The translations under genes were made by a program, and so were the position numbers. Of a stretch of 39,723 nucleotides of DNA, positions 1 through 25,298 are shown piece by piece. Positions within the stretch are counted from its first letter, which is position 1. Every line of letters begins with the position of its first letter. Below the pieces are notes generated by a model, which was not told the DNA's origin, ran no database searches, and was given only the letters and a program-made list of their open reading frames with translations. Source of the stretch: a virus; the IMG/VR virus record IMGVR_UViG_3300034072_001830, positions 1 to 39,723 of that record; one strand, written 5' to 3'.

Positions 1-1204
1 TGAAAACAAAAGGCTGCGCTTCTGCGCCAGCGCCGACATCCGTTTCTTCGGTCTCCGTTTCCGCCGCTACCTCCTCATGCGCCGCAGGAGCAGCTTCTGA
101 GGGCGCGGTTTCGACGATTTCATCGTCCGCGACTGCGTTTTCTTCGGCTTGAGCCTCTTCGGCAGGGGCATCGGCGATTGCCCGCTCGGTTAAGGGCGCT
201 TCTGCTTCATCCTCATCGAGTTCGAAAAGATCGGCGATGTCGTCCGTCATCGCCACATTCGCAGCGGTGTCGGCGTCCTGCGCGGAAAGCGCCGCCGGGG
301 TTTCCGTTTCGTCTTCCGGCAGGGACAGGACGCTGCCGTCATCCTGCTGCGCTGGCGCTTCTTCTTCGGGATCGACCGGCAGTTCCTGTACCTCTTCCAC
401 ATCCTCGATGCCGGCAACAGCGTCGAGCACGGAATCGAAGGAGGTTGCAGCGGCAACAGTCTTGGCCTCCGCAACCGGCAGGGCTGGCGCTTCCTGCGGC
501 CTGTCTTCGAAAAAACCATTGACGGGATCGAGTGTTCCCAGCGCGGTTTCGACCACGAACATCAGGTTCAGTTCGGGCGATGTCGCGATCTGGCCGGTGG
601 CCGCGGGCAGATAACCCTTGCCGGTCGGCACCGGCCGCTTGACGAGATGGCCGGGCTGTCCGGCCGCCATCTTCACCAGCGTCCGCGCTGTGTGGGGCGT
701 AATACCGAGAGAAGAAAAGCCGGGGGAAGCAGCGACAATCTCGTTCTCGCCGTTCAGAACCGCCATATGGATATCGGGGTCGTCGAACCCTTCGATCATG
801 CGCCGGGCGCATTCCGCCGTGTCGGGTGCGGCCTGATCGGTGAGGGCGGAAAACAGGATGGCGGGCTGGCCGGGTTCGGCCTCGATGACTTCCGCGCGCG
901 CGGTAACGGCAAGGCTGCGGAAACCCGAGGTGATGCGAATGGTAAACGGCAGGCTGTCGCCCGCTTTGGAAAGCCGCGCCGCCGCGGCCGCCAGTTGCCG
1001 GAAGGTCACGTCCTGCGGTTTCGGGCCCTGTTCCAGAAAATCATAGACCATCGGCGTGCCAAACAGCGCCGCACCCCGGCCATTGGCCCAAAGGGCGTTT
1101 TTAAGGTCGAGCGAGAACAACGCCATGGCCTCGCCGCGCCCGAAACCGTCACGCACCCGTTCATGCACTGCGATATCGATAAAGGGATACTGGACGGCGG
1201 GCAT
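1..1204 (-). CDS. N-terminal part of a large PdhS/CbrA-like sensor histidine kinase (partial, runs off the left edge)
   Basis: An uninterrupted minus-strand frame of 401 codons starts at ATG 1204 and is still open at base 1. The protein begins MPAVQYPFIDIAVHERV. Residues about 1-240 look globular and sensory-like; from about residue 240 it becomes a long acidic, Ala/Glu/Asp-rich linker. This layout (N-terminal sensor region, acidic low-complexity linker, then PAS and kinase domains) fits large cytoplasmic cell-cycle kinases of Rhizobiales such as PdhS and CbrA, which act on DivK and feed the CckA-CtrA phosphorelay. The PAS, HisKA and ATPase domains would lie outside the window, so the family is inferred from the N-terminus only. 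A CtrA-type box lies 87-101 bases upstream of the start, which fits the role. It is a host gene, not part of the prophage. Confidence 0.6.
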   Translation of the reverse strand, partial: MPAVQYPFIDIAVHERVRDGFGRGEAMALFSLDLKNALWANGRGAALFGTPMVYDFLEQGPKPQDVTFRQLAAAAARLSKAGDSLPFTIRITSGFRSLAVTARAEVIEAEPGQPAILFSALTDQAAPDTAECARRMIEGFDDPDIHMAVLNGENEIVAASPGFSSLGITPHTARTLVKMAAGQPGHLVKRPVPTGKGYLPAATGQIATSPELNLMFVVETALGTLDPVNGFFEDRPQEAPALPVAEAKTVAAATSFDSVLDAVAGIEDVEEVQELPVDPEEEAPAQQDDGSVLSLPEDETETPAALSAQDADTAANVAMTDDIADLFELDEDEAEAPLTERAIADAPAEEAQAEENAVADDEIVETAPSEAAPAAHEEVAAETETEETDVGAGAEAQPFVF

Positions 1205-1290
1205 GTCGAAACCTATTCTGGCACTACCGGACCTCGCGGGCTTTCGGCTTCCTCATGAAGCTCTAAACGTAAACCCGCCGAGGCATCACG

Positions 1291-1305
1291 TTAACAGAAT
1301 TTTAA
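1291..1305 (-). promoter_or_regulatory. CtrA-type binding site upstream of the kinase gene
   Basis: On the minus strand the sequence reads TTAA-AATTCTG-TTAAC, an exact match to the full CtrA site TTAA-N7-TTAAC known in alphaproteobacteria. It lies 87-101 bases before the kinase start at 1204. A further TTAA half-site lies at 1361-1364, and a 15-bp palindrome (AGGCCGC-C-GCGGCCT) at 1372-1386. The match is seen directly; control by CtrA is inferred. Confidence 0.55.
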
Positions 1306-1458
1306 ATAACTTCACAGGGCGATCCGGTCCACCATCCGCCGGATGAATCGCCAAATAGAGTTAACGTCAACAGGCCGCCGCGGCCTCTTAGTGACAATCC
1401 GGCCCATTGAAAAGAGCTTGCCTTTCTTCGCCTTTTTTCGCAAAATTCGAACAGGCAC

Positions 1459-1487
1459 TTGCAAATGGGCAAAACACCTTTTATGTC
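1459..1487 (+). promoter_or_regulatory. Possible promoter of the tRNA-His gene
   Basis: TTGCAA at 1459-1464 and TATGTC at 1482-1487 are separated by 17 bases, placing a start site near 1494, about 26 bases before the mature tRNA. The match to the consensus is moderate. Confidence 0.4.
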
Positions 1488-1519
1488 ACCCCCCGTGACG
1501 CCGCTTCGGCGTTTCATGT

Positions 1520-1596
1520 GCGGTTGTAGCTCAGTTGGTTAGAGCGCAGGTTTGTGGCACCTGAGGTCGGTGGTTCGACCCCACTCAACCGTACCA
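1520..1596 (+). tRNA. tRNA-His (anticodon GTG)
   Basis: The 77-base sequence folds as a cloverleaf: acceptor GCGGTTG/CAACCGT, D arm GCTC...GAGC, anticodon loop with GTG inside TTTGTGGC, T arm with GGTTCGACC, and encoded CCA at 1594-1596. Position 1 pairs as G1-U72, the discriminator is A73, and no extra G-1 is encoded in the pairing. This is the special tRNA-His type of many alphaproteobacteria, whose histidyl-tRNA synthetase does not use G-1. tRNA genes are common phage integration sites, and foreign-looking genes start right after this one, so it may be attL. No second copy of its 3' end is present in the window. Confidence 0.93.
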
Positions 1597-1598
1597 TT

Positions 1599-1647
1599 CC
1601 CCTCTCCCAGTAAGTTCATATGTCACAAGGACTTACCGGGAGAGGGG
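1599..1647. repeat. Long inverted repeat directly after tRNA-His
   Basis: CCCCTCTCCC (1599-1608) pairs with GGGAGAGGGG (1638-1647), and GTAAGT (1610-1615) with ACTTAC (1631-1636), with one mismatch between the two blocks and a 15-base loop. It begins two bases after the tRNA CCA. There is no T-run after it on either strand, so it does not look like a normal intrinsic terminator. It could be a processing hairpin, a terminator that needs a factor, or part of an attachment site. Confidence 0.6.
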
Positions 1648-1685
1648 AAAAATTCTCCCGACCCTTTCATCTCCGAAAATCGACG

Positions 1686-1704
1686 TGTTATGAAATTCAT
1701 AACA
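1686..1704. promoter_or_regulatory. 19-bp perfect palindrome, possible operator of the HEPN gene
   Basis: TGTTATGAA-A-TTCATAACA is a perfect palindrome with 9-base arms. A second small inverted repeat, CGTTGT-GTTG-ACAACG, lies at 1720-1735, and the motif ATAACA recurs at 1710-1715. They lie between tRNA-His and the HEPN gene. They could bind a repressor of that gene or be integrase arm sites; nothing in the sequence decides between these. Confidence 0.5.
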
Positions 1705-1890
1705 TCCCCATAACATTTTCGTTGTGTTGACAACGCAGAACGGGAAGTGAACTTTCGGCACGAATACGGTCCCGGCGCTCTGTTTCTGTCGTCCGAAAGT
1801 CCTGCAATCCCAAGATTTCGACTGGCATTCACACCTCCGGCTGTATTTGATTGGCGCTGTAAAACCAATCCTTGTCTCGTGAGTCGCGCG

Positions 1891-2847
1891 ATGTCTGATG
1901 AACCCTACATTGCCTATCGGTGTCCCGCCTGTGACCAGTTGGTCACGCAGGATTGCGATTTCCCCTATTTCGACGAAACAGCCGATTATCGGCACGAGGC
2001 TGTTGATCAGACCGATTGTGTGGCGCAGTGCTCTTGCGGCGAGCAGCACATTTTCACGATCACGGCATTTGGGGCGAACTATTGTGAAGTGGTCGCGCAA
2101 GGTGACCTACACATCAGGGTGATGTTGTATCGGCCCCCCTCGATCGAGGATGAAGAGCAATATGAGATGTTTCTCGACTCTCCCGAACTCGACGATCCAT
2201 ATCGAATTTTTCTCAGGTCGTCGTCCGGGCTGTCCAGCCTCGCTAGAGTGGAAGTGCCGGTGGAGCGCTTGGAGCAGGCCCAGTACCGGATGCTCTACGC
2301 AAATAACATCGCCATCCTGGAGGCGTACCTTTGCGATCGACTGATCGACCTTGTCTCATACGACGACGAAGTGCTTCGAAAGTTCGTGCTCAGACACAAG
2401 CCGCTGAAGTCAATGACGGTGTCGATCCATTCCGTCCTTGGTCACCCGGGCATGGCAAGGAAGCAGGCAGTCAAATATCTCCGAGACTTCCTTTTCCACA
2501 AGCTGGACGCCGTGCAGGCTATTTACAGGGACGCGTTCGACATCGACGTGTTTGCAAATACCGCTCGGAAAGACGCACTTGCCGAGATGGTGAAGATTCG
2601 GCACGACCTTGTTCATCGCAACGGCCGGGACAAAGAGACTGGCCGCCTTCATGTGTTCGAACCGATAGACCTTAGCCGTGTCAGTCAGGCAGTCGGCGGC
2701 TTAGTTCACGAAGTTGAGGACAAGCTGGCTTCTCATGTTCGCTTAAAGCGCTTTCGCACCTTCGAAAATCCTCCACCCGCAACGCCGGAGCCGATAAATT
2801 TCGGCGAGCTGAGTGATGAGGAAGCTGAGGCAGCGGTGGGCCGATAG
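1891..2847 (+). CDS. HEPN-domain protein with N-terminal cysteine cluster
   Basis: The 318-residue product from ATG 1891 has a likely zinc ribbon at its N-terminus (C11, C14, C22, C43, C47, C49). Its C-terminal helical half carries the HEPN signature R-X4-H (R237 to H242, in IRHDLVHRNG). HEPN proteins are often metal-independent RNases, many of them toxins or abortive-infection effectors; that activity here is inferred. The frame is open upstream to 1747, but those 48 codons are low-quality and the MSDEPY start gives a clean domain. The gene stands alone on the plus strand next to tRNA-His, with the neighbouring genes on the other strand. No antitoxin-like small partner is visible. Palindromes at 1686-1704 and 1720-1735 may control it. 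Confidence 0.7.
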   Translation: MSDEPYIAYRCPACDQLVTQDCDFPYFDETADYRHEAVDQTDCVAQCSCGEQHIFTITAFGANYCEVVAQGDLHIRVMLYRPPSIEDEEQYEMFLDSPELDDPYRIFLRSSSGLSSLARVEVPVERLEQAQYRMLYANNIAILEAYLCDRLIDLVSYDDEVLRKFVLRHKPLKSMTVSIHSVLGHPGMARKQAVKYLRDFLFHKLDAVQAIYRDAFDIDVFANTARKDALAEMVKIRHDLVHRNGRDKETGRLHVFEPIDLSRVSQAVGGLVHEVEDKLASHVRLKRFRTFENPPPATPEPINFGELSDEEAEAAVGR

Positions 2848-2862
2848 CGCCACTACTGGACC

Positions 2863-3405
2863 TCAGTTCTGATTTTTAACTACGTTCGGCCCGAGGTCGG
2901 GTGACGCTCCGCCGCTATGGTGCCGAATGCGCCCAGCGACAATGTGCGCCATCATCATGGTGGCAGCCGCGGACTTCGCATGGACCTGGTAAGTCGATCC
3001 ATCGACCGAGAACGTCGCACGGTGTGGGCCGAACTCTAGCCGCAACGACTGCCAGACGTCAGGGTGTGAGACCATCATAAGTTTCGACACACCTGGCACG
3101 GACGTTGACCAGGCATTATCTTCGCCGCTGGCGGCTACGCGAAGGTATGACGTGTCCATTGATGTCGGTGGCCACTCCTCAACGGATAGATAGGCTTGGA
3201 CCTTCCTGTCGAGAAAGGTGCTGGGAGGAGCGTCTGACAGGACCTGCATGATCTCTTCGTAGGTCAATCTTCGGGGACGCTGGAACTCGGGCTTTCGGTG
3301 CTCTTCGCGAAGCAAGCGACCCTCTTCTGCGTCCGCATCGGCTCGGTTCGCTCGGATATTTGCACCGAAGGACCTGTAGAAATTTCCAATAAATGACCGC
3401 TTCAC
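2863..3405 (-). CDS. Hypothetical protein, 180 residues, downstream of the GIY-YIG gene
   Basis: A complete 180-codon frame starts MKRSFIGNFYRSFG. I do not recognise a family. The N-terminal 45 residues are basic and charged (RANRADADAEEGR), and the C-terminal part alternates hydrophobic and polar residues with a stretch AKSAAATMMMAHI that could be a helix. It starts 12 bases after the stop of the GIY-YIG gene on the same strand, so the two probably form a small operon. Its stop is tail-to-tail with the HEPN gene, only 15 bases away. It may be a partner or regulator of the nuclease, but nothing in the sequence proves this. Confidence 0.55.
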   Translation of the reverse strand: MKRSFIGNFYRSFGANIRANRADADAEEGRLLREEHRKPEFQRPRRLTYEEIMQVLSDAPPSTFLDRKVQAYLSVEEWPPTSMDTSYLRVAASGEDNAWSTSVPGVSKLMMVSHPDVWQSLRLEFGPHRATFSVDGSTYQVHAKSAAATMMMAHIVAGRIRHHSGGASPDLGPNVVKNQN

Positions 3406-3417
3406 CGTTGTGTCCTC

Positions 3418-4071
3418 CTACTGACCTGAAACGCCGAGGATGTTCCAGGCCGGCTGTATCTTGGCGATAAGACCAGCTTCCAAGCCCGCCGCGGTGTTAA
3501 CCGGTAACCCATTCCACTCACTTGCCGCAGGCGTCGCGACCAGAACCTTCACCCGTTTACCTGCAGCCAAGGCGTCCTGTATCAGCGCCTTCACACGCGC
3601 GTTGGTCCGTTGCCTCTCGTATCCCCGACGATAGCCGTCCAGACGAGCCCGCAGGCCGCGCTGTGTCAGGCCGACGTACATGACGACGTCGTCCACCACA
3701 AAAGAGTATACTCCTGCGTCGGCTGGGGCCTTGGCATCGATCAGGAAGTCCTCGTTTTCGACTTTCCACTCCCCGAGAAAGTGGAAGCCAGCCCGCAGCA
3801 GCACCTCCCATGAAGTTCCCGTGGATGCTTCATCGGTGTCGTCATCACCGACCTCGACGATGACAGGCTCGCGTTCGAGGCTGACTTCTTCTCTCGGTTG
3901 GAGGCCCTCGGTTATCCCGGCGTCTACGAGGACCTTCCGGACATGCTGGTAGCGGATGCCGAGGAGAGAGGCGATTTCGGTTCTCATGTACCCGGCACGG
4001 GCTAGCGCCCTGATCATGTCTGATTTCGTCGGGAGGCCTGTAGTCACTTCGTTGAATGTTGGTCTCGTCAT
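3418..4071 (-). CDS. HTH + GIY-YIG nuclease
   Basis: The 217-residue product has an N-terminal helix-turn-helix-like segment (about 18-52) with the core TEIASLLGIRYQHVRKVL. An acidic linker (60-85) follows, then a GIY-YIG domain from about 95. Visible nuclease motifs are G120-V-Y122, M131-Y-V-G134, R141, the glutamate E198 in GLEAGLIAKIQPAWN and the closing N210. GIY-YIG enzymes cut DNA with one metal ion and include homing nucleases and type II restriction enzymes such as the Eco29kI and Hpy188I families. The gene is divergent from the MT-A70 methyltransferase, with a 300-base control region between them, so it may be a second nuclease of that modification system or a solitary HTH-guided nuclease. 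The product call is firm at the domain level; the role is inferred. Confidence 0.7.
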   Translation of the reverse strand: MTRPTFNEVTTGLPTKSDMIRALARAGYMRTEIASLLGIRYQHVRKVLVDAGITEGLQPREEVSLEREPVIVEVGDDDTDEASTGTSWEVLLRAGFHFLGEWKVENEDFLIDAKAPADAGVYSFVVDDVVMYVGLTQRGLRARLDGYRRGYERQRTNARVKALIQDALAAGKRVKVLVATPAASEWNGLPVNTAAGLEAGLIAKIQPAWNILGVSGQ

Positions 4072-4169
4072 CGCTGTCTACTCGTCGGTCTCTTAGTTCC
4101 AAATCGTTTCGCGACTATTCTACGACGAACTTTAACGTCAGGTTGCGGAGCAATACTTGACGCGAATCG

Positions 4170-4229
4170 AATTAAGAACAAATTAAGAACACGAGATAAG
4201 CACGGTGTGAGTCTGCGATTGCAGACTCA
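4170..4229. promoter_or_regulatory. Control region between the GIY-YIG and methyltransferase genes
   Basis: Two perfect tandem copies of the 11-mer AATTAAGAACA lie at 4170-4180 and 4181-4191. They are followed by a perfect inverted repeat TGAGTCTGC-GATT-GCAGACTCA at 4208-4229. Both lie in the 300-base divergent gap (4072-4370), where a regulator of a restriction-modification locus would bind. No C-protein gene is visible; the HTH of the GIY-YIG protein or the methyltransferase itself could act here. The repeats are seen directly, the role is inferred. Confidence 0.5.
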
Positions 4230-4370
4230 ATCTGGGGACCGCTGAACAAAGGAATGTCCGGCGCAAGCCTGATGTGGTAGGCCAAGGGCAACTGTCAGCA
4301 CATTTTGGCTCGATCGAACACCGCATTTCCGGTAAGCAGATTGGTACAGCCACGGAATAAGGAGATATCA

Positions 4371-5030
4371 TTGCTCAAGCGCACCGACGACGCACCGTCT
4401 CCTTCACAGGACTTTCTCGACTTCACGGCTGGCCGCCGGTTCAAAACCATCATGGCGGACCCACCATGGCAGTTCATCAACCGAACCGGTAAGGTAGCGC
4501 CTGAACACAAGCGCCTGTCGCGCTATGGAACCATGGCACTTCCCGAAATCATGGCTCTGCCTGTTGAACAGGCATGCGCTTCGACTGCCCATCTGTATCT
4601 TTGGGTGCCGAATGCGCTCTTGCCCGAGGGCCTTGAGGTCATGAAGGCATGGGGATTCCAATACAAGTCGAACTTGGTCTGGCACAAAGTCCGTAAGGAC
4701 GGTGGCTCCGATGGCCGCGGCGTAGGCTTCTACTTCCGGAACGTGACTGAGCTGATCCTGTTCGGCGTTCGGGGCAAGAACGCACGGACACTCGATCCCG
4801 GTCGTTCTCAGGTCAACTACCTGTCATCTCGTAAACGCGAACACTCCCGCAAGCCCGATGAGCAGTATCCGCTGATCGAGGCCTGCTCTCCCGGCCCATA
4901 CCTCGAAATGTTCGGCCGTGGCGTGCGCAAGGGATGGACCACGTGGGGCAATCAGGCCGATGAGGCATATGAGCCCGATTGGAAGACCTACGGATTCAAT
5001 TCTGCCACTGATCGCGTCGCGGCCGAGTAA
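4371..5030 (+). CDS. MT-A70 family DNA adenine methyltransferase
   Basis: The start is taken as TTG 4371, because AAGGAG lies at 4359-4364 with a 6-base spacer; a TTG at 4305 has no such site. This gives 219 residues. The catalytic motif DPPW is at residues 30-33, in KTIMADPPWQF, and the SAM-binding fold continues through LYLWVPNALLPEG and later MFGRGVRKGWTTWG. MT-A70 enzymes transfer methyl to the N6 of adenine using SAM; in bacteria they are mostly phage or restriction-modification DNA methylases. Its stop touches that of the BglII/BstYI-like endonuclease gene on the other strand (tail to tail, no gap), the usual layout of a type II pair. It would protect host DNA from that enzyme. Confidence 0.8.
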   Translation: MLKRTDDAPSPSQDFLDFTAGRRFKTIMADPPWQFINRTGKVAPEHKRLSRYGTMALPEIMALPVEQACASTAHLYLWVPNALLPEGLEVMKAWGFQYKSNLVWHKVRKDGGSDGRGVGFYFRNVTELILFGVRGKNARTLDPGRSQVNYLSSRKREHSRKPDEQYPLIEACSPGPYLEMFGRGVRKGWTTWGNQADEAYEPDWKTYGFNSATDRVAAE

Positions 5031-5939
5031 TCACTCGGTCGGGGCGACTATGCCTTCCTGTTCCTGAGCTTCGTCTTCTCTTTCGATGTCGACAAGCTCA
5101 AGTCCTTCGTCGAAGGTGACGATGCTGGACGGCAGCCCCACGAGGACGAGTGGGCACGGATTTCCCACGCCGCGGTGGACCCGATCCTCAAGTTTTGACC
5201 AGTGTGTTGTGGCCTGGCCATATTTGTCTGATACGAACTGGCTAGCCCAAGCTTCCTCGTACGACATGCCTGCACGCATCCGTCGTTCGACCTCTCTGTT
5301 CTGTCGCGCCGTACGGCTCATGCCGAACCCGGTAACGGCTTCGTGGGAGTTCAATCCGCGTTCGACAGCGAAGCGCTGCACCATCGGCTTCAACTCGTCC
5401 TGCATCGACGTGCCACGAGTGACGATCACACCGACCGAAATCGCTCCGTCCGCATGTAGGCGTTTGAAGTTTTCTAGGTCGCGATCGAAGAACGGGTCCT
5501 TGTTGTTCCATTCGATTTCGCAAGCGACGACGCCGGGCTCAAATGCCTTAACGTGGTCGATCTCGTGAGAGATTGCTTCCCTTGCGACCCCGTTGATGGT
5601 CTTCTCGACGATGAAATTCATCTTGGTCCAGCCAAGCTCGGCGAGCGATCGGCGCAGACGCTGCGTGCCCTGAGACTCGCCGCCGCCTGAGCCCACGATC
5701 TCCTCGATCGGTATTGAAAGACCTCCAATCGCGGCCTCAAGCTCGGCGACGGCGTCAGGGAAATCGACGCTGAGGATAGCGCGAGCATGGGAATGGACTT
5801 CGACTTGGAAGCCGCGTTCTATCAGGGCGTCAAACATGATTTCATTCGCAGAGTGATTCGTTGCCTGATGGTACCACAACCTTGGAATGAAGACGCGGTG
5901 GCTATTCTTTTGCGGCCTCGATCTGACCGGTTGCGCCAA
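5031..5939 (-). CDS. BglII/BstYI-like type II restriction endonuclease
   Basis: This protein of up to 302 residues matches the BstYI/BglII pattern. Early it has VEVHSHARAILSVDFPDAV; at the core EIDHVK followed by ACEIEWNNKDPFFDRDL, giving the PD-(D/E)XK-type residues D128, E141 and E143; and later the conserved PLVLVGLPSS. Family members cut GATC-centred sites, but the site cut here cannot be read from sequence. The outermost start is a TTG at 5939, inside the end of the PIN gene (38-base overlap) and without a clear ribosome site, so translation may be coupled to PIN and the first residues are uncertain. It faces the MT-A70 methylase gene tail to tail, the expected partner. Expressing it from the PIN operon while its methylase has its own promoter is unusual. 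Confidence 0.75.
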   Translation of the reverse strand: MAQPVRSRPQKNSHRVFIPRLWYHQATNHSANEIMFDALIERGFQVEVHSHARAILSVDFPDAVAELEAAIGGLSIPIEEIVGSGGGESQGTQRLRRSLAELGWTKMNFIVEKTINGVAREAISHEIDHVKAFEPGVVACEIEWNNKDPFFDRDLENFKRLHADGAISVGVIVTRGTSMQDELKPMVQRFAVERGLNSHEAVTGFGMSRTARQNREVERRMRAGMSYEEAWASQFVSDKYGQATTHWSKLEDRVHRGVGNPCPLVLVGLPSSIVTFDEGLELVDIEREDEAQEQEGIVAPTE

Positions 5940-6384
5940 AGGCGGGCAGGGTGGCCGATGCTGTGACTGTTACGGACTTCGGCGGGACGATCAGTTCCAG
6001 ATCAGGGAAGTACTTCACGAAGTCTTTCTGGTTGTTCGTCATCAGGGGCGCGTTCTCCTGCATCGCCTCAGCTCCGATGAAGAAGTCTGGCAAGAGGCTG
6101 TTTTTGGGACCTTTATTGACGGTCTTGTATTTCTGGTAAGCGCGTCCAGCTCCCAAAAGGGCGTCATCGCTTCCCGGATATCTTTCGACGCCCAACTCGC
6201 CGAGAACGTGGTTCACTTCGGCAACATCTTTAAACGTGACGCTGACCTCAGAATAGACAACGTCCGATATGATAATTGGCCCCTGCTGCTTGCGGGCGTT
6301 GAACTGATCGAGGGCCCACTGGTGGTTCGTCTCGGTGGCCTTGATCAGGGAGATGAGGATGCTCGAGTCTAAAAACGTAGTCAT
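5902..6384 (-). CDS. PIN-domain nuclease (VapC-like)
   Basis: The 160-residue product shows the PIN fold acidic set: D6 in TTFLDSSILISL, E46 in VVYSEVSV, D100 in LPDFFIGAEA, and the NNQKDF segment with D121. PIN domains are metal-dependent RNases, typically toxins of VapBC pairs. The length is slightly above a normal VapC because of a C-terminal tail of about 20 residues. Its ATG shares four bases (ATGA) with the stop of the 363-residue gene upstream, showing tight coupling, and its end overlaps the restriction endonuclease start. The upstream partner is far too large for a VapB antitoxin and has no visible ribbon-helix-helix or AbrB motif, so this is not an ordinary toxin-antitoxin pair. Confidence 0.75.
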   Translation of the reverse strand: MTTFLDSSILISLIKATETNHQWALDQFNARKQQGPIIISDVVYSEVSVTFKDVAEVNHVLGELGVERYPGSDDALLGAGRAYQKYKTVNKGPKNSLLPDFFIGAEAMQENAPLMTNNQKDFVKYFPDLELIVPPKSVTVTASATLPAFGATGQIEAAKE

Positions 6385-7472
6385 TCGCCCCTCATCAGCT
6401 TCATCAGTTCATCTGCGGTCATGCTCGGCTCGATGTTTTCCGCCTTGAGCTTTTCAAGCGCTGCCTGTGTCCTTCGTTTCACGAAATCCTCAAGATCGAA
6501 CTCCTCAAGGTCATCGGGAGACATGTCTTCGAAGCCCGCGTATTTCGCGAGCATTGCGCAGGCTGGCGGAATGCTTTTGAGAACACGTGGGTTTGTTCTG
6601 TGAACCGCTCCACGAGGCCGGGGATCATTAACGAAGAGCTGCACGTCTGGTATGAGCGTCGTCGTCCGCTCCTTCGTGGCTTCCTCGGAGAAGCGTTGCC
6701 GTCCGCCGCAGGCGTCGTAGAGTGTCACGAGATGTTTGATCGCGAGCCTCTTCTCGAGTGTCGGCTTCCCGGTCAGCTCCATGAACCCGTAATCATCGAG
6801 AAGGCTCGCGTACTGCGAAGGGGCCGTCGGCTTCCGATCCAACAAGCGCTCCTCGATAATACGGTCCAACGCGAGGAACAGGCAGTCCACCCACCAACGC
6901 TCTATTCTCGGGGTGTTCATCTCCTTGAGGCGACCACCCTGAAATAGGTAATTGAGGTTCGTGGCGAGCTTCCGCGTGGTTTCGGCTCGATAGCGTGGAT
7001 CGGACTTGACGAAACGTTCGATGTCGTCGGCGCTGACGGACTTGGTCTCCCAATTGAGCTTCCCGGCAACGCGTTCCCGGACATAGGCATTCGCCCACAA
7101 GGCAGGTCTACGCTGCTCCTTTCGTGCTCCAGCCCAGCGGCCCGCAAGGCTCAGGTCAAAGGCGAAAAGCGCGAGCTTGTCGAAGCGTGGCGAGTGGTCC
7201 CAATTGATGGCCTGGAATACAAGCTCGTCGGCACAGAGGTGGTCGACCCCTCTTACCGTCTTGTTGAACAAGAAGAAGTTGATGGGAATGTAGTCTGGTC
7301 GGCCGGTCTGCCGCACGCGACTGCGGAACTCGTCGCGCCTAACGTCTTGCATCTCGCCGCGGAAACCCAGGCGGATGATTTCATGCAGCTCTGACAACCC
7401 AGCGGACGGACGGCCCCAACTGAAGTTTTTGGTAAAGCTACCAGGTTTCCATATGTCGGTTTCGTCGGCCAT
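6381..7472 (-). CDS. Unrecognised 363-residue protein, first gene of the PIN/restriction operon
   Basis: A complete frame of 363 codons starts MADETDIWKPGSFTKNFSW. I do not recognise the family. The N-terminus (about 10-60) has the pattern SFTKNFSWG...GLSELHEIIRLGF...RRDEFRSR, which looks like a conserved winged-helix-like start. The middle is helical and rich in charged and aromatic residues (FDKLALFAFDLSLAGRW, WWVDCLFLALDRII), and the C-terminus is acidic (DDLEEFDLEDFVKRR). There is no signal peptide or membrane segment. Its stop overlaps the start of the PIN nuclease gene (ATGA), which in turn overlaps the restriction endonuclease. It may regulate, neutralise or target the PIN nuclease; this rests on gene order only. 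It is the best candidate here for part of an undescribed defence module. Confidence 0.6.
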   Translation of the reverse strand: MADETDIWKPGSFTKNFSWGRPSAGLSELHEIIRLGFRGEMQDVRRDEFRSRVRQTGRPDYIPINFFLFNKTVRGVDHLCADELVFQAINWDHSPRFDKLALFAFDLSLAGRWAGARKEQRRPALWANAYVRERVAGKLNWETKSVSADDIERFVKSDPRYRAETTRKLATNLNYLFQGGRLKEMNTPRIERWWVDCLFLALDRIIEERLLDRKPTAPSQYASLLDDYGFMELTGKPTLEKRLAIKHLVTLYDACGGRQRFSEEATKERTTTLIPDVQLFVNDPRPRGAVHRTNPRVLKSIPPACAMLAKYAGFEDMSPDDLEEFDLEDFVKRRTQAALEKLKAENIEPSMTADELMKLMRGE

Positions 7473-7529
7473 AGCTGCTCGTCAATGAGAATCCGACACG
7501 ATCCTATATCGGCGTGGTAAACATTCAAC

Positions 7530-7790
7530 TCATAATAGAGCGGAATTCTGGAGGACACCGAACGAAGTCAGGGCATACCAGCCGGCGGCGGCCACAGCGG
7601 TGACGACGATGATACTGAGCACGGCGATCTCGACATACGATTGCCAATAAGACGGAAGAGTTGACTGCCGCTCGGCTTCCCGCTTGGCTTCGGTTATCGC
7701 CACTTTTTCCCATCGCGCATCAGGGGCTGGCCATCGCTGCACCGGATGGTGAAGCCGTCGCCAAGCCTCCACGAATTTGGGATGTCTCAT
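7530..7790 (-). CDS. Small single-pass membrane protein, 86 residues
   Basis: The start at ATG 7790 is chosen because AAGGAGAT precedes it with a 6-base spacer; longer upstream forms lack this. The protein begins MRHPKFVEAWRRLHHPV, has a charged amphipathic segment (RWEKVAITEAKREAERQ), and a membrane helix at about 54-78 (VEIAVLSIIVVTAVAAAGWYAL), ending shortly after. I cannot assign a function. It ends 57 bases before the 363-residue gene on the same strand, so it could be the first gene of that operon, or an unrelated phage moron. Head-to-head with it is the small plus-strand gene pair at 7931-8400. Confidence 0.55.
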   Translation of the reverse strand: MRHPKFVEAWRRLHHPVQRWPAPDARWEKVAITEAKREAERQSTLPSYWQSYVEIAVLSIIVVTAVAAAGWYALTSFGVLQNSALL

Positions 7791-7930
7791 CTCTCTATCT
7801 CCTTCTCGGAAGCTAACGTGCCGCTCCATTAACAATCCGATCGTCATATTCGATTCGTTCGGTTTGGGTCGACTTGCCGGAGTCCGAAGTGCCCGGCATA
7901 CACGACGGGCAACAGGCAGGGAGACGCGAC

Positions 7931-8239
7931 ATGGCAAGCTTTGGAAACCCAGCATATTCGGCGGCAATGGGCAATGCCGGTGGCATGATGGTCCTCGCAG
8001 CAGCGGGCGTCGGCCTTGCGTCGGCTATCGGCGACGGGATCGCCGCCGCGCGCGAAGCTCGCTACAACCAGCGCTATGACGACGCCCTGACGACCGCGAT
8101 CGGCCATGCGGAGCAGATGGAAGCCATGGCACGCGCCGCGATGGAAATGCTCGCCGAACTCGAAGCGGAGAACGGCCGTCTCCGCGCCGCATGCCAGCAG
8201 CGCCAAGCCTACATCGACCGTCTCAAGGCGCGTGCATAA
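7931..8239 (+). CDS. Small hydrophobic/coiled-coil protein, 102 residues
   Basis: The start at ATG 7931 follows AGGGAGA with a 6-base spacer. Residues about 15-37 (NAGGMMVLAAAGVGLASAIG) form a hydrophobic, glycine-rich segment that could enter a membrane. The rest is helical, with a likely coiled coil from about 58 (HAEQMEAMARAAMEMLAELEAENGRL). No family is recognised. Its stop shares one base with the next start (TAATG), so the two plus-strand genes are co-translated. They are the only plus-strand genes between the cargo block and the end of the prophage late operon, and read against it. Confidence 0.6.
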   Translation: MASFGNPAYSAAMGNAGGMMVLAAAGVGLASAIGDGIAAAREARYNQRYDDALTTAIGHAEQMEAMARAAMEMLAELEAENGRLRAACQQRQAYIDRLKARA

Positions 8240-8400
8240 TGTCGGATATCTCGAAGGAAGACTGGGAGCGCGTTCGGCAGCACTTCGGCGATCTCGCGTA
8301 CGAGCATCCAGAGCTGCACGCGGTTATGCTCGAGCTGCTCGATGCGAACGACCTCGATGGGGCGCTTGAGAAAGCAACGCGCTCCAGACGTCCCGCCTGA
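8239..8400 (+). CDS. Very small protein, 53 residues, coupled to the gene before it
   Basis: ATG 8239 overlaps the stop of the previous gene (TAATG), and the frame ends at 8400. The product, beginning MSDISKEDWERVRQHFGDL, is acidic and predicted helical (ELHAVMLELLDANDLDGALEKA), with a short basic tail. I do not recognise it. It is followed after 25 bases by an intrinsic-type hairpin. Its short length and overlap suggest a phage or cargo accessory protein, for example a partner of the 102-residue protein. Confidence 0.5.
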   Translation: MSDISKEDWERVRQHFGDLAYEHPELHAVMLELLDANDLDGALEKATRSRRPA

Positions 8401-8420
8401 TCCAGGCGACGAGTGGAGTG

Positions 8421-8446
8421 AAAAAAGCCCGCCGAGATGGCGGGCT
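8421..8446 (-). terminator. Intrinsic terminator, end of the late operon
   Basis: AGCCCGCC (8426-8433) and GGCGGGCT (8439-8446) form an 8-bp stem with a 5-base loop. On the minus strand the stem is followed by six T (8421-8426). It lies just after the stop of the minus-strand gene at 8458-9033. On the plus strand it has only a weak T-tract, so it may also slow transcription of the 7931-8400 pair. Confidence 0.75.
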
Positions 8447-8457
8447 TTACGTTTGCG

Positions 8458-9033
8458 TTATCCTGGCATCTTGAACTGGTTGCCGGTCTTGTCGGCCCGG
8501 CTCTTAACACGCCAGAACATGTGTTTGTGGACGGTCATCGGCTTCCTCGGTTCGAGAACTGACACTTTGACCGGCTCTCCCGGAACGAACGTCCTGACAC
8601 CGAAAACCCCGTGGTCACGGCCCTCGACGAACTTGCGGATAGCGGAGAGACCAGCTCGACCGAGCGCGTCGAGTTCGAGGTCGCTCATGTCGAGCAGCGT
8701 TGTTCGCAAGTCTTCCTTGACGAGGCTCAGGTCAAACGTCGCGCGTGCCGCTTCGGAGGACTTGGCGTACTTCATCACCGTTGTAACACCGTCCCTATCA
8801 AGATCGTGGACAGCCGCTTGGCGCTGCCTCGACGCCTCGAATTCGTCGAGGAGCTGTGACCCCGAAACATCGGGTTTGTATTCCGGCCTCGGCATAGCGC
8901 CGCCCCCGCCATTCCCGAAGATGAGCGAAAACGGCCACCGAACAACCTGTTCGCACCAATTTACGACGCCAAGCGTATTTTTCCAGAGGCCGCTCAAGGC
9001 CGACATCAAAGCTCTTCCGATTGCTCTCAACAT
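8458..9033 (-). CDS. Phage late protein of unknown function, 191 residues, amphipathic N-terminus
   Basis: The start at ATG 9033 follows GGGAGAAA; longer upstream forms begin inside the preceding terminator. The N-terminal 45 residues (MLRAIGRALMSALSGLWKN, then CEQVVRWPFSLIFGNGGGG) form an amphipathic to hydrophobic helix followed by a glycine hinge. After this comes a helical middle with DLDRDGVTTVMKYAK and a C-terminal strand-rich part. I do not recognise it. It is the last gene of the late strand, after the lysis cassette, with its own upstream terminator (9090-9116) and a downstream one (8421-8446), so it is probably transcribed separately, like a moron. A membrane-associated role is possible from the N-terminus. 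Confidence 0.55.
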   Translation of the reverse strand: MLRAIGRALMSALSGLWKNTLGVVNWCEQVVRWPFSLIFGNGGGGAMPRPEYKPDVSGSQLLDEFEASRQRQAAVHDLDRDGVTTVMKYAKSSEAARATFDLSLVKEDLRTTLLDMSDLELDALGRAGLSAIRKFVEGRDHGVFGVRTFVPGEPVKVSVLEPRKPMTVHKHMFWRVKSRADKTGNQFKMPG

Positions 9034-9089
9034 ATGATTTCTCCCTCGCTGTTTGCCTGCCGATCTTTCGGCGGCCGAACGCAAGGCAC

Positions 9090-9116
9090 AAAAAAAGGCC
9101 GAGGCGAACCTCGGCC
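9090..9116 (-). terminator. Intrinsic terminator after the spanin genes
   Basis: GGCCGAGG (9097-9104) and CCTCGGCC (9109-9116) form a perfect 8-bp stem with loop CGAA. On the minus strand a run of seven T follows (9090-9096). It lies 109 bases after the spanin gene stop at 9225 and before the separate gene at 9033. Confidence 0.8.
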
Positions 9117-9224
9117 CAGTCTCTCGATGTTTCAGCAAATCAGCGCGCTCTGAAGGGACAGGTGCCGCTCGCCTGATTCATGATGTGCCGGCCGCTAGCG
9201 AGGGGCAAGACGGCCGGTAGAAAA

Positions 9225-9431
9225 TCATGGCTTCCAGCATCCACGTTCCTCGCCAAGAAGATTGTTCGTCAGAACCCTGCGTTTCGTATCTTCGGTCATA
9301 CCGGCCATCTCTTGCGCTGTGGGGTGGATAACCTCGAACCCGGCGCACCTAGAGGCGTCAATTGTCGTGACGCACCCAACGGGCAAGCTCGCGATCAAGG
9401 TCGCTGCTGCCCATTTTCTGAACTCTGGCAT
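9225..9431 (-). CDS. Outer-membrane spanin subunit (Rz1-like lipoprotein)
   Basis: ATG 9431 follows AAAGGAACG and gives 68 residues. A short signal peptide (MPEFRKWAAATLIASLPVGC) ends at Cys20, a plausible lipobox despite proline at -3. The mature chain is short and hydrophilic. The gene begins inside the i-spanin gene in another frame (overlap 9358-9431), the classic Rz/Rz1 arrangement. It would form the outer-membrane lipoprotein half of the spanin complex that fuses inner and outer membranes in the last lysis step. Function is inferred from position, overlap and lipobox, since spanins are poorly conserved. Confidence 0.65.
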   Translation of the reverse strand: MPEFRKWAAATLIASLPVGCVTTIDASRCAGFEVIHPTAQEMAGMTEDTKRRVLTNNLLGEERGCWKP

Positions 9432-9612
9432 GGACACGTTCCTTTTCCTTGAGGGCATTGAGTTCGTCGGCAACACGATCTGCCTCGGCGGCCGCCTTGC
9501 CGGAGGCGTAGATGCGCCAGTAGCCGGCGGCGACGATGGCGGCGATCCCGGTCCATTTGAGAAGGGTATTGCCGATGGACGTCGAGGTTAGCCAAGCGAC
9601 GACGGTCGTCAT
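9358..9612 (-). CDS. Inner-membrane spanin subunit (Rz-like)
   Basis: The 84-residue product has an N-terminal membrane helix (about 15-35, in LLKWTGIAAIVAAGYWRIY). A charged helical periplasmic part follows, with coiled-coil character (AEADRVADELNALKEKERV). This is the i-spanin layout. Its ATG overlaps the holin stop (ATGA), and its 3' part contains the start of the lipoprotein gene in another frame. The order endolysin, holin, i-spanin, o-spanin is a standard phage lysis cassette. Confidence 0.7.
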   Translation of the reverse strand: MTTVVAWLTSTSIGNTLLKWTGIAAIVAAGYWRIYASGKAAAEADRVADELNALKEKERVHARVQKMGSSDLDRELARWVRHDN

Positions 9613-9791
9613 TTCGGCTCTCCATGATGACGGCGCTTGTCATAGAGCGACCAAGCAACACCGAGGACTGCGACGGCAGCGCCCGCTAGGGTTTCGATGT
9701 CATCAGGGGACAGGTCGCTGGTCGCCAGCAGAGCGCCACCGGCGACGGTCAGAAAATGGCGAAGTAGTGCAAGGAAGGCGGCTTTAGGCAT
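9609..9791 (-). CDS. Small holin (Pam3-gp28-like)
   Basis: The start ATG 9791 follows AAGGAG and gives 60 residues; longer frames overlap the endolysin without a ribosome site. Two hydrophobic segments (about 3-21 and 30-50) flank a short acidic turn (SDLSPDDIETLAG), and the end is basic (LYDKRRHHGEPK). The pattern LLRHFLTVAGGALLATS...AGAAVAVLGVAWSLYDKR fits the Pam3-gp28 family of small putative phage holins. It would form lesions in the inner membrane that release the endolysin. Its start overlaps the endolysin stop by 8 bases. Confidence 0.7.
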   Translation of the reverse strand: MPKAAFLALLRHFLTVAGGALLATSDLSPDDIETLAGAAVAVLGVAWSLYDKRRHHGEPK

Positions 9792-10596
9792 TGGTGGCTC
9801 CTTCGGCTGCGACGGCCTCGTAGGCGTCAGCGCGGGCGCGGTTGATTTGGGATTTCCGGAACAGGTAGACGGCGAATCCAATGAGGCCGACGGCGACGAC
9901 GATCAGGGCGATGGTGCCAATACTGTCGAGGTTCGTCAGATCGACGCCAACGGTCGATCCCGCGCCCGAGGCGGCAGACGTCGTCGCCGTGGCTGTGTTC
10001 GCATTGGCGGCCGTGCGGGCGGACTTGGCCTCGGCGGTCAGATGCGCAGCCACGCCACGATCCGATCCGCCGCGGACCGCGAGTGACATCTTGGTCGCGT
10101 TGGCTTCGACACCCGCGATCCGACGGCTCCATCCCCTACCGAATGTCGACCAGGTCTTGAGGCCCTGAACGAAGGACAGGCGACGAGCGCAGATGGACTT
10201 AATCGTCTTCAGGGGATCAGCGGCGGCCGCCTTGGCGACAGTCTGGTTCCCCACGACACCGTCGGCAGATGCTCCGACGGATAGCTGGAGCCATTTGGCA
10301 CCACGAGAGACGCCCGAATTCACCGCTGCGTCGAGCGTGGCGTAATCCACGCCTGCCGGCAGCGCGTCGTAGCGGACCTTGTCGGCATACTGAGTCTGAT
10401 AAATGGACGAGACCTCGACCTCGGCGATCTCACGGACCGACCGGGTCTTGAGGCCGATGCGCTTGCGGTAGCTGTCATAAACGGCCTGAGTAATGCCGAA
10501 GTTCGTGGCACCGCCGGGGTCAAGTCTATGATGGACGAAGCCGCCTTCGTCACGGCGCAGGTGCGCCATGGCGGATTTGTATGTGGATGCTGCCAT
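9784..10596 (-). CDS. GH108 endolysin with C-terminal membrane anchor
   Basis: The 270-residue product opens with the glycosyl hydrolase 108 signature: DEGG at 16-19 (catalytic E17), DPGGATNFGIT at 26-36, then a putative peptidoglycan-binding part (GASADGVVGNQTV). These enzymes cut the glycan strand of peptidoglycan. After residue 190 comes a low-complexity Ala/Thr linker (TAANANTATATTSAASGAG), then a membrane helix at about 226-247 (GTIALIVVAVGLIGFAVYLF) and a basic tail. A C-terminal anchor is unusual, since most endolysins have none or an N-terminal SAR signal. It may hold the enzyme at the membrane until the holin acts. It is the first gene of the lysis cassette. Confidence 0.85.
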   Translation of the reverse strand: MAASTYKSAMAHLRRDEGGFVHHRLDPGGATNFGITQAVYDSYRKRIGLKTRSVREIAEVEVSSIYQTQYADKVRYDALPAGVDYATLDAAVNSGVSRGAKWLQLSVGASADGVVGNQTVAKAAAADPLKTIKSICARRLSFVQGLKTWSTFGRGWSRRIAGVEANATKMSLAVRGGSDRGVAAHLTAEAKSARTAANANTATATTSAASGAGSTVGVDLTNLDSIGTIALIVVAVGLIGFAVYLFRKSQINRARADAYEAVAAEGATNA

Positions 10597-10616
10597 GAGG
10601 GTGGTCTCTGTGAATT

Positions 10617-12284
10617 CTATGATTCTGCGTCGACCGGCGGCGAGAGGCCAGCGGCCCGATATCGCCCATCCGCAACCATCGGGATCATAGCCCTGGTGCC
10701 GAAGGGATAGAGGGCGACGTGAGCGTGCGCCCAGGTCGTGGGGCCGACGTTGTATCCCTGGAAGAGCTTGGCCGAGACGCCGGCGACATACGAGCCGTCC
10801 GAAATCTTGGGGCTGTGCGTATGTCCAGACGTCACCTTGCGGCCGAAGCGCCGGAACTGAAGTGGGGAGCCGCGACTGCCCCCGATCCCGAGATCGCCGT
10901 GCAGTCCGTTCTCGACGTCACATACGATGAAACTTTCACCGGCACGGACGAACGTGACGTCGTCAGCAAGCCCGAGCATTCGGAACGCATACTCGGTGGC
11001 ATTGAAGTTACTGCTTCCCGCGCGGATCGCGTCATGCCAGGCAGCATTGAAACGGTGCCACAGATAGGCGTTGTCGGGGTCGTAGCGGCCGTCGTCTGCC
11101 TTGACCCATTTGACGATTGCGGAGTCGTGGTTGGATTCGACAACGACAACCTCGCACCACTCCCGGCGCAGACCGTTGGCAAAGGCGACGGCCTCCGAAA
11201 TCTCCCGTTCCACCGACACAGTGCCGCGGGCGGTCATGGTGGCCATCGCGTGCGGATCGCGGATGTTGTGATGGTTCCTCCACCGAAAATCGAGCGTGTC
11301 CTCGGCGAACACGTGGATCGGCTTCAATCGGTCAAAGAGATTCGGACAGTCAACGAACTGACGACTGGCGACATCGTAACCGACCGACGCCATCGCGATA
11401 TGGGGATCGAGCTGATCATGGTGCCAGTCGCCGAATGTGAGAGCGGCGGCACGGTATCCATGCTTGACCTCTCCACCCTCTACGAGAATGTCGAGGTCCT
11501 GAAAGTCGCCGTTCGCGTTGGCGATGAGCTGGCCGAAGAAGACCTCGCCGTCGCTGTCGATCTCGACGAGCAAAGCCCCGATCGTGTGGTGGAAGATAGC
11601 CTTCCTGCCCGCTGCCCTCGGAGCGTACGACGGCAGCGTGCAGCAGCCGGTCGTATAAGCGTAGCGGGGTGGCTGCTCGAGCATTCGGGGAATGCTCTCC
11701 ATCGCGATCCTGGCATGAGGAATTACGACATGATGTCCGTGGTTGACGGTGGTCCATCCGTTCAACGGATTAGCCGCGGTCGGCAGGATATTGGCATCCG
11801 CCACGAAGAGAAGGTCGTTGGAGAACCGCACCCGATCATAGAACATGTAGTCGTGCAGCTCGGGCGCAAAGACCGCCGTGGCGGCCGCGTGATCCTCAAA
11901 CAAGCCCTTCTGGTATGTGAACCCGGCGACGATCAACGCCGCATTGAGGTGTTCGGCGTAGGCGTGAAGATTGGTGAGGAAGGGCTGGTGGACAGGGGTA
12001 TCGTCCTGTGCGGCGGTCAAAATGAACCGGTGGACAATACCCGCTTCGAGATCGGGCCTGATCTCCGGGATGGTGGAAAGCCTGACGGGCTTCGGCTTTT
12101 CCTTCTTCTCGGGTTCGGGTGCTGGAGCTTCTGGTAGTTTTTTGGCCCTCAGCCACTCCAGCGCCGAGCGCGCCTCCCGTTCCGACCACCCCAAGGCCTT
12201 GGCCAGGCTACGTCTCCCAAGCCCCTGAAAACCGCGTTCTACTACAATCGCGGCTCTTCCGGCCGCCGTTTTCATTTCCTGCAT
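10617..12284 (-). CDS. Calcineurin-like metallophosphoesterase, T5 A1-like
   Basis: ATG 12284 follows GAGGGGA; the product is 555 residues. An N-terminal HTH-like segment (RRSLAKALGWSEREARSAL, about 24-42) and a Pro/Glu/Lys linker precede the main domain. That domain carries calcineurin-like motifs in order: GDWHHD (285-290), SNHD (384-387) and GHTHSP (487-492), a full metal-site set. Phage T5 pre-early protein A1 is of about this length and is thought to be a phosphoesterase of this type, involved in host DNA degradation and in stopping host synthesis; I recall this relation and have not searched it. Here it sits just upstream of the lysis cassette in the late strand, not in an early region. 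The enzyme class is well supported; the role is inferred. Confidence 0.65.
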   Translation of the reverse strand: MQEMKTAAGRAAIVVERGFQGLGRRSLAKALGWSEREARSALEWLRAKKLPEAPAPEPEKKEKPKPVRLSTIPEIRPDLEAGIVHRFILTAAQDDTPVHQPFLTNLHAYAEHLNAALIVAGFTYQKGLFEDHAAATAVFAPELHDYMFYDRVRFSNDLLFVADANILPTAANPLNGWTTVNHGHHVVIPHARIAMESIPRMLEQPPRYAYTTGCCTLPSYAPRAAGRKAIFHHTIGALLVEIDSDGEVFFGQLIANANGDFQDLDILVEGGEVKHGYRAAALTFGDWHHDQLDPHIAMASVGYDVASRQFVDCPNLFDRLKPIHVFAEDTLDFRWRNHHNIRDPHAMATMTARGTVSVEREISEAVAFANGLRREWCEVVVVESNHDSAIVKWVKADDGRYDPDNAYLWHRFNAAWHDAIRAGSSNFNATEYAFRMLGLADDVTFVRAGESFIVCDVENGLHGDLGIGGSRGSPLQFRRFGRKVTSGHTHSPKISDGSYVAGVSAKLFQGYNVGPTTWAHAHVALYPFGTRAMIPMVADGRYRAAGLSPPVDAES

Positions 12285-12361
12285 GCGTGTCCCCTCAGAC
12301 ATTGTGTTGCAAGGGGACGTTTTGTTGACGCCCGAGGCATTGCAAGTTTCGCCGGCAGGAA

Positions 12362-12631
12362 TCACCGATGAAAGAAGTCCTGAAGGCCGAGGTAGAGTAT
12401 GGCGGCGGCACCGGAGGCGGCCGCCGTAAAGAATCCGACCATGGCCTTGAAGCTGATCTTTTCAGCTGCCTGGCGCTGACGACGGAGGTAACGAAGGTCG
12501 TCGCCGTAGGCAGTCACGCTATCGATGTCGGTGGGATCGACGCGCATCAAATTGAAGACTTCCTTGATCGCTTCCTTGGCAGCGGCTTCGGCGGCGGTAG
12601 TTACGAGTGTCCTGATTTCGAGTTCGGTCAT
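12362..12631 (-). CDS. Small phage protein with C-terminal membrane helix, 89 residues
   Basis: The product starts MTELEIRTLVTTAAEAAAK and has a conserved-looking core DLRYLRRQRQAAEKISFKAM, followed by a membrane helix near the C-terminus (about 64-84, VGFFTAAASGAAAILYLGL). Small proteins of this layout (helical N-terminus, RxLR core, C-terminal anchor) are common next to tail fibre or lysis genes of alphaproteobacterial phages and are often named DUF6127; I cannot confirm that family. It lies between the fibre and phosphoesterase genes. It might be an extra holin-like or membrane protein. Confidence 0.6.
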   Translation of the reverse strand: MTELEIRTLVTTAAEAAAKEAIKEVFNLMRVDPTDIDSVTAYGDDLRYLRRQRQAAEKISFKAMVGFFTAAASGAAAILYLGLQDFFHR

Positions 12632-12695
12632 GCGATGGGGCTTTCAGTGCGGGATTGTAAATATTGAGCCTGTCGGCGCGGCGAGAGACAACAAA

Positions 12696-13874: not shown

Positions 13875-13891
13875 AGTGCGGATTCCCCGTT

Positions 13892-14383
13892 CTATTCTTC
13901 GTCGTCGTCATCGTCAGAGGGTTCATTGAAGTTCGGATAACCGGGATCGGTCCATGGGCCGGGAGTGCCATCCCAAAGGTTGCCTTCTTCCATCACGACA
14001 GTGGTGAACTTCCACCAGTCGTCGCCAGGATATCCGGGGTATCCGGGAGGAGGGCCACCCGGATACCACCAGTTGGTATTCGTACCGATCTGGGCGGGCC
14101 GGGTTCCAACCCCCTCCCGTTCGGCCGTTCCCGTGTTCGTGCCGCCGGTGGTGAACAGTTTGCCCGTGGAGCGCGGATGTCGGTTTTTGACCTGGTGTGC
14201 CGTCTCCCGAAGTCGGGCGATGATGTCCTGAACCTGAAACTTCGACCCTTTGATCGGGGAATTGTCCACGACCTTGGGCTTGTCCTTCTTTGGACCGGAA
14301 CCGACGAAGGCGAACCACTTGTCGATCTCGTAATTGTGGTTCATCGGCGGCGCGGTGGGCGTCGTCTTTTTCTTCGCTGCCAT
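13892..14383 (-). CDS. Proline/tryptophan-rich phage tail-region protein, 163 residues
   Basis: ATG 14383 follows GGAGG. The protein starts basic (MAAKKKTTPTAPP). It has a helical part (VQDIIARLRETAHQVKNR), then a Pro/Gly/Trp-rich stretch (GTNTNWWYPGGPPPGYPGY), and ends with a run of Asp/Glu. I do not recognise a family. Its place between the tail hub and the fibre gene suggests a fibre attachment or tail-tip accessory role. The tyrosine/proline repeats (PGYPGYPG) are low-complexity and might mediate assembly contacts. Confidence 0.6.
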   Translation of the reverse strand: MAAKKKTTPTAPPMNHNYEIDKWFAFVGSGPKKDKPKVVDNSPIKGSKFQVQDIIARLRETAHQVKNRHPRSTGKLFTTGGTNTGTAEREGVGTRPAQIGTNTNWWYPGGPPPGYPGYPGDDWWKFTTVVMEEGNLWDGTPGPWTDPGYPNFNEPSDDDDDEE

Positions 14384-14395
14384 GGAAACCTCCGA

Positions 14396-16357: not shown

Positions 16358-16360
16358 CGG

Positions 16361-16891: not shown

Positions 16892-16892
16892 G

Positions 16893-20444: not shown

Positions 20445-20453
20445 GGGTCAGCC

Positions 20454-21098: not shown

Positions 21099-21105
21099 GG
21101 GAACC

Positions 21106-21764: not shown

Positions 21765-21797
21765 GTTAGGTTCCTAACTGAGGTATGGCCACAAACG

Positions 21798-21823
21798 AAA
21801 AGCGCCCCCGGAGGAGCGCCTTT
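21798..21823 (-). terminator. Intrinsic-type terminator after the major tail gene
   Basis: On the minus strand AAAGGCGCTCC pairs through a short loop with GGGGGCGCTTTT (one or two G-U pairs), followed by TTTTCGTTT. It lies 22 bases after the stop of the major tail protein gene and 34 bases before the chaperone start, inside the late operon, so it must be leaky or be read through by antitermination. Confidence 0.65.
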
Positions 21824-21845
21824 CGAAATGAGGGATGGGGTTGGA

Positions 21846-22619: not shown

Positions 22620-22637
22620 GGAAAGCTCCTTGGAGTG

Positions 22638-24464: not shown

Positions 24465-24467
24465 GTG

Positions 24468-24797: not shown

Positions 24798-24876
24798 GTC
24801 GGCCTCCTGCGGGTCGGCAGCGGGAAGCGATGCCCGCCGCTGTTGTCGAAATGGATGGATTTACGGACCGGAAGCG

Positions 24877-25273: not shown

Positions 25274-25298
25274 CGTTTTGCCGGGTCTGGAGAAGCCG

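Follow-up and report, generated by a model that had tools for sequence, protein, structure and literature searches.

A prophage restriction–modification cassette with a possible built-in VapBC-type guard

Introduction

Toxins of type II systems are commonly silenced by an antitoxin segment that wraps over them (PMC4803016). The VapB antitoxins of this class are usually also DNA-binding autorepressors (PMC4803016). A ribonuclease can also stand guard within a restriction–modification (RM) system: in the PrrC/EcoprrI case, the RNase guard sits inside an RM locus of type Ic (PMC12707154). VapBC modules and RM guards are both known kinds of system, and the cassette described here is not a new category. 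A literature search found no publication that combines MT-A70, PIN domain, restriction, defence and antitoxin.

The cassette was found in a prophage and comprises a large 363-aa protein, a PIN nuclease, a type II endonuclease and an MT-A70 methyltransferase. The reading preferred here, in which we place about even confidence, is that of a type II RM cassette with a built-in VapBC-type guard, where a giant sensor antitoxin holds the PIN toxin. Three alternatives are weighed below, each beside the evidence that bears on it.

Organization of the cassette

The window, meaning the whole stretch of DNA that was analysed, is 39,723 bases long. The tRNA-His gene at 1520-1596 is consistent with a prophage end. 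The features discussed are as follows.

1..39723, no strand assigned: the whole window, an IMG/VR virus record of 39,723 bases, prophage
6381..7472, minus strand: 363-aa protein, with a ~240-aa N-terminal domain (domain X), a middle region and a VapB-like tail at residues ~350-363
6384..6425, minus strand: VapB-like tail SMTADELMKLMRGE, the last 14 residues of the 363-aa protein, predicted clasp on the PIN toxin
5902..6384, minus strand: PIN-domain (VapC-like) nuclease, 160 aa (Pfam PIN, E 3.8e-8)
5031..5837, minus strand: BglII/BstYI-family type II endonuclease (R), 268 aa from the probable ATG at 5837 (Pfam PF09195, E 2.3e-22)
4305..5030, plus strand: MT-A70 family N6-adenine methyltransferase (M) with a DPPW motif, convergent to the other genes (Pfam PF05063, E 1.7e-29)

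The open reading frames of the 363-aa protein, the PIN nuclease and the endonuclease are present where an initial annotation had placed them, as judged from ORF calls and, for the latter two, from Pfam. The ATGA common to the stop of the 363-aa gene and the start of the PIN gene is real as well, and is kept in many relatives (for example L010, L012, L014, L060 and L061). The 38-base overlap that had been reported between the PIN and endonuclease genes is probably a start-codon artefact: it depends on a TTG start at 5939, where the longest form of the endonuclease ORF (5031-5939, minus strand) opens. In L002, L010 and L011, homologues of 268 aa begin MFDALI.. and are preceded by in-frame stop codons. 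Their start is equivalent to the ATG at 5837, so that a 64-base gap after the PIN gene is likelier than an overlap. Even with this gap, the two genes remain close and in the same orientation. The start of the methyltransferase gene at 4305 is uncertain, as its homologues begin further in.

Two other genes of the window deserve mention. A 366-aa protein encoded beside the tRNA-His gene (1747-2847) has a solid match to PHROG 29321, a family of unknown function, and a sub-threshold match to RiboL-PSP HEPN (E 0.022); it may be another defence gene. At 3418-4071, a 217-aa protein combines an N-terminal HTH-like segment with a GIY-YIG/UvrC-like endonuclease part (PHROG 1111, E 1.4e-12).

Recurrence and gene order

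The 363-aa and PIN genes are found together in at least 14 loci, on pRi and roseobacter plasmids, in prophages and on chromosomes of Alphaproteobacteria. Recurrence of the pair with restriction genes had been set as a test of a joint system, and the same gene set is indeed present in many unrelated replicons. The linkage is more than chance, and the joint-system idea is strengthened by it; the objection that the pairing occurs only here fails, because both the pair and its restriction link recur widely. Relatives of the 363-aa protein at 45-82% identity are encoded on pRi/Agrobacterium–Rhizobium plasmids, on roseobacter plasmids, on an Agaricicola chromosome and in an Allorhizobium prophage, and all of those loci have the order 363 > PIN > R with M convergent. 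Profile searches revealed further arrangements. L013 has M > 363 > PIN with R convergent, L060 has 363 > PIN divergent from R with M convergent to R, and six loci consist of M, 363 and PIN with no endonuclease gene (L012, L014, L015, L025, L058 and L061). Neither a PF09195 protein nor a relative of R is present anywhere in the whole R-less virus records G003, G005, G006 and G391.

An MT-A70 methyltransferase lies beside domain X in every locus, and a BglII/BstYI-type endonuclease in about half. Since M is found in all loci and R is missing from six, the methyltransferase is the constant partner of the 363/PIN pair and the endonuclease is optional. The proposed link to restriction recurs, then, but with the methyltransferase and not the endonuclease as obligatory neighbour. 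The description of the methyltransferase as a separate unit suits the window, where the gene is convergent, but not several other loci, in which it is co-oriented and directly upstream of the 363-aa gene.

These arrangements bear on the possibility of plain addiction, in which a VapBC-like pair keeps its mobile element stable and travels along with an RM cassette to which it has no functional coupling. RM and TA systems are both known stabilizers of mobile elements, and the 363/PIN pair is located on plasmids and prophages. Against this, M accompanies X-PIN everywhere and in varied gene orders, a simple antitoxin needs no domain of ~330 aa, and domain X recurs beside R and M with an HNH nuclease instead of PIN (described below). 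Simple addiction is made less likely by the constant presence of M, and we consider it a rather unlikely explanation.

The family is rare, with matches in 1 of 385 class, 3 of 395 family, 3 of 397 order and 1 of 398 phylum genomes, each count taking in the centre genome, which was a carrier known beforehand. A single 363-aa sequence used as query had no match among viral contigs, and profiles were needed to recover relatives. A DNA pattern scan for the tail plus ATGA returned only chance matches in terminase genes.

Several loci show decay or additional neighbours. Remnants of the 363-aa gene persist on Sphingomonas plasmids (L007:6001-6384 and L008:6001-6252) and in a faecal phage contig (L009:3194-3685), the last of which retains M and R; no PIN gene was found there. 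The methyltransferase of one R-less record (L015:7397-7930) has lost DPPW (to RPPW) and a conserved central block, with 363 and PIN intact. On pRi-type plasmids, a divergent operon encoding DGQHR-domain and hypothetical proteins lies upstream of the cassette (L002:5681-7777, L003:5575-7777).

Restriction genes and loss of RGATCY sites

The endonuclease scores 79.9 bits against Pfam PF09195 (cut-off 26). The methyltransferase matches PADLOC MTase_II at 2.5e-93, and its DPPW motif is seen in alignment A5; on this basis the adjacent MT-A70 protein is the putative cognate methyltransferase of R.

RGATCY sites are absent from the window prophage: none was observed, against 37.5 expected from a flank-independent estimate or 47.4 from a third-order Markov model (range 32-60). 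All four RGATCY hexamers are missing, and GATC itself is normal at 300 sites. An Allorhizobium prophage with the same cassette (contig C3 of G002, ~98-148 kb) also lacks RGATCY, the sole exception being a site within R; the DNA to the right of that region and a control stretch have normal RGATCY. Sequence that blastn detects as common to both prophages amounts to only about 4.7 kb, so that most of the loss is not simply a matter of shared sequence. This pattern fits a BstYI-like R with activity on phage DNA, its putative RGATCY specificity being read from the absence of sites. Temperate phages are reported to have lost every copy of a site less often than non-temperate ones (PMC6286503). Lacking every RGATCY, the prophage illustrates how a restriction weapon could travel with a temperate phage whose own genome it is unable to cut.

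Site counts were also obtained for other carriers of the cassette; a related phage free of the cassette, to act as a control, was looked for and not found. RGATCY is the lowest of ~32 site classes in two R-less records with intact M, at ratios of 0.39 (G005) and 0.32 (G391). It is mildly low in the R-less G003 (0.74), unremarkable in the R-less G006 (0.79, rank 9), whose methyltransferase has RPPW instead of DPPW, and not depleted in the R-bearing G004 (0.95). Low counts in R-less records hint at RGATCY being read by M/X/PIN too, although RM systems of the host, or earlier ones, could be responsible.

A different site, YAGCTR, stands at 0.21-0.22 of expectation in L094 (the Allorhizobium C1 control) and L093, which suggests a separate host RM system recognizing an AGCT core.

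The PIN nuclease and its VapB-tailed partner

In the PIN protein, the catalytic residues D6, E46 and D100 do not vary across an alignment of 22 PIN/VapC proteins. Its PIN match is above the Pfam cut-off and VapC structures are matched by profile; the NCBIfam VapC match (E 7e-8, 32.6 bits) is under the equivalog cut-off of 80. Relatives carry the NCBI annotation 'VapC family toxin'; beyond the family itself, the proteins from IMG/VR viral contigs that come closest to PIN are VapC toxins adjoining ~81-aa AbrB-type VapBs. Domains of the PrrC type (ATPase and anticodon nuclease) are absent: with Pfam, PADLOC and NCBIfam, the toxin shows PIN only and its partner no family.

That partner had been described as no classic VapB antitoxin and of no known family. 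Database comparison agrees, as searches of the 363-aa protein against Pfam, PADLOC, NCBIfam, PHROGs and PDB sequences gave nothing credible (one NCBIfam match lies far below its cut-off), and no AbrB, RHH, HTH or Phd DNA-binding domain was detected with Pfam, NCBIfam, PADLOC or PHROG. The description does not extend to the C-terminus, which looks like the toxin-binding tail of a VapB. The last ~13 residues of the 363-aa family (MTADELMKLMRGE) resemble the tail of AbrB-type VapB antitoxins (MTTEEIMALTRGE); the ~81-aa AbrB-type VapBs beside related VapCs end SAGMTTEEIMALTRGEE, and the corresponding stretch of the 363-aa protein is EPSMTADELMKLMRGE. When C-termini were scored with an end-anchored motif, each of the 14 family members gave 18.6-39.3 (36.1 for the window protein), and none of 1,396 background ORF C-termini exceeded 17.4. 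Among the best-scoring rows from 2,100 ORFs, only true VapBs and the 363-aa family matched the end of a VapB-tail HMM at their own C-terminus. Within alignment A7, which has 11 sequences, R361 never varies. At 13 residues the tail is a short motif, and HMM scores of single sequences are modest. The tail match, the VapC-like relatives of the PIN protein and the wrapping mode of type II antitoxins together lead us to regard the 363-aa protein as probably a VapB-like chimeric antitoxin with a giant replacement domain; the reading is put no higher than probable because its basis is a single short motif.

Domain X

Conserved positions of the 363-aa family fall mostly within residues 1-240. This ~240-aa N-terminal domain X has no detectable relative. 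AlphaFold models built with 7 and 8 sequences reached pLDDT 59 and 65 (pTM 0.70 for the better model), and these moderate-confidence models gave no credible fold match for domain X with Foldseek or VIA-align. Two likenesses to DNA-binding proteins, seen by eye, were not supported by profile similarity. The hhalign score for a relationship to BrxA (DUF1819) was reached by 23 of 200 column-shuffled decoys, and that for DUF4007/SspB by 135 of 200.

Weak winged-helix-like matches to residues 190-262 (Z 4-6) were obtained with model 1 and were not reproduced with the better model 2. They would suit a role for X in C-protein-like transcriptional control of the RM cassette, combined with its antitoxin role, where methylation of the operator by M would set the levels of R and PIN. 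The autorepressor habit of VapB antitoxins points the same way (PMC4803016). This reading is opposed by the failure of the fold matches to recur, by the lack of a conserved GATC-containing operator upstream of the 363-aa gene (by eye) and by promoter regions in the window that contain no RGATCY. It is the least probable of the alternatives considered.

One locus shows domain X with a different effector. In L059, from a genome of the order that includes Agaricicola, an HNH_2 nuclease (E 4.3e-11) is joined to domain X (E 1.4e-40) in one protein and stands in place of the tail and the PIN gene (L059:7233-8507). The fusion gene is followed by R (PF09195, 2.2e-44) and M in an operon without a PIN gene, and relatives of the HNH domain include an SRA-HNH restriction protein (H30). 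Domain X is thus predicted to work with exchangeable effectors, PIN in trans and HNH in cis, which argues for a role in sensing or targeting.

The same fusion makes plausible the main rival to the guard reading, a DNA-directed nuclease made of X and PIN. Here X would be the DNA-reading subunit and PIN a tail-docked catalytic partner, and the two would jointly nick or cut unmodified RGATCY DNA or its transcripts; M, X and PIN would make up the restriction system, with R optional. The six loci with M, X and PIN and no R agree with it, as do the attachment of X to an HNH DNase with an SRA-HNH relative and the depletion of RGATCY in the R-less G005 and G391. PIN domains are mostly RNases, however, the tail resembles the inhibitory tail of a VapB and not a generic docking motif, and several elements already carry R for the same site. 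On balance this rival is unlikely, though it is the one to be taken most seriously.

Proposed mechanism

The guard reading, in which the antitoxin-like protein restrains the PIN toxin, rests on gene linkage, tail similarity, intact catalytic residues, the recombination of X with HNH in one locus and the elimination of RGATCY. The ATGA coupling, the constancy of M and the low RGATCY of the R-less G005 and G391 also speak for it. Weighing against it are the brevity of the tail, the lack of a credible fold match for X, and the RGATCY counts of G004 and G003, undepleted in the one and only mildly low in the other. The steps would be the following. (i) R would cut unmodified RGATCY in incoming DNA, as its family and the missing sites suggest. 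(ii) Meanwhile the 363-aa protein would use its VapB-like tail to keep PIN, presumably a VapC-type RNase that cuts RNA, from acting. (iii) Domain X, which takes the place of the usual AbrB domain, may sense DNA or the methylation state set by M. (iv) X would free or redirect PIN once modification is disturbed, be it by persisting foreign DNA, by loss or inhibition of M or by a block on RM. (v) The freed nuclease would then stop growth. DNA cutting would thereby come first and growth arrest second, in the order originally proposed.

A stronger form can be entertained tentatively at best. X may be a new domain that reads both sequence and methylation, through which a VapB-type antitoxin directly senses unmodified RGATCY DNA and gates an RNase toxin, or a DNase in the HNH fusion, by the mark that M leaves. 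The R-less versions would then be methylation-gated suicide systems.

If the guard reading is true, a compact TA pair is joined both physically and evolutionarily to restriction–modification through a chimeric antitoxin with swappable effectors. The cassette would offer a simple system for testing how restriction failure becomes growth arrest, and X could be named as a new sensor domain.

Comparison with known systems

DS-5, reported with DefensePredictor (PMC13092281), also pairs a PIN nuclease with a second required protein. Its partner has DUF5830/AcrIF4-like domains, in contrast to the one described here, and the available part of that report considers it likely not a TA system and mentions no RM genes. 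The L059 protein is built like SRA-HNH and other reader-HNH restriction enzymes, with a large domain at the N-terminus and an HNH_2 nuclease behind it, whereas domain X matches neither SRA nor any Pfam family. With the BglII/BstYI type II RM systems the cassette shares an endonuclease in PF09195 and, to judge from site elimination, a putative RGATCY specificity; it differs in its MT-A70-type methyltransferase and in two extra genes, the X-tail and PIN genes.

PrrC/EcoprrI offers a parallel in action, a presumed RNA-cutting toxin in an RM locus that is proposed to fire when restriction fails (PMC12707154). The parts are unlike: a PIN toxin with a VapB-tailed partner in a type II RM setting here, and an ATPase-anticodon nuclease in PrrC, so that the likeness would be one of mode of action only. 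VapBC systems with an AbrB/SpoVT-type VapB share the D/E/D PIN toxin, the antitoxin gene directly upstream with an ATGA overlap, and the C-terminal tail motif, and VapCs of this kind are the PIN protein's nearest relatives outside the family. The cassette departs from them in the size of the putative antitoxin (354-380 aa as against ~80), in the replacement of the AbrB domain by a large unrelated one, and in standing always beside an MT-A70 methyltransferase.
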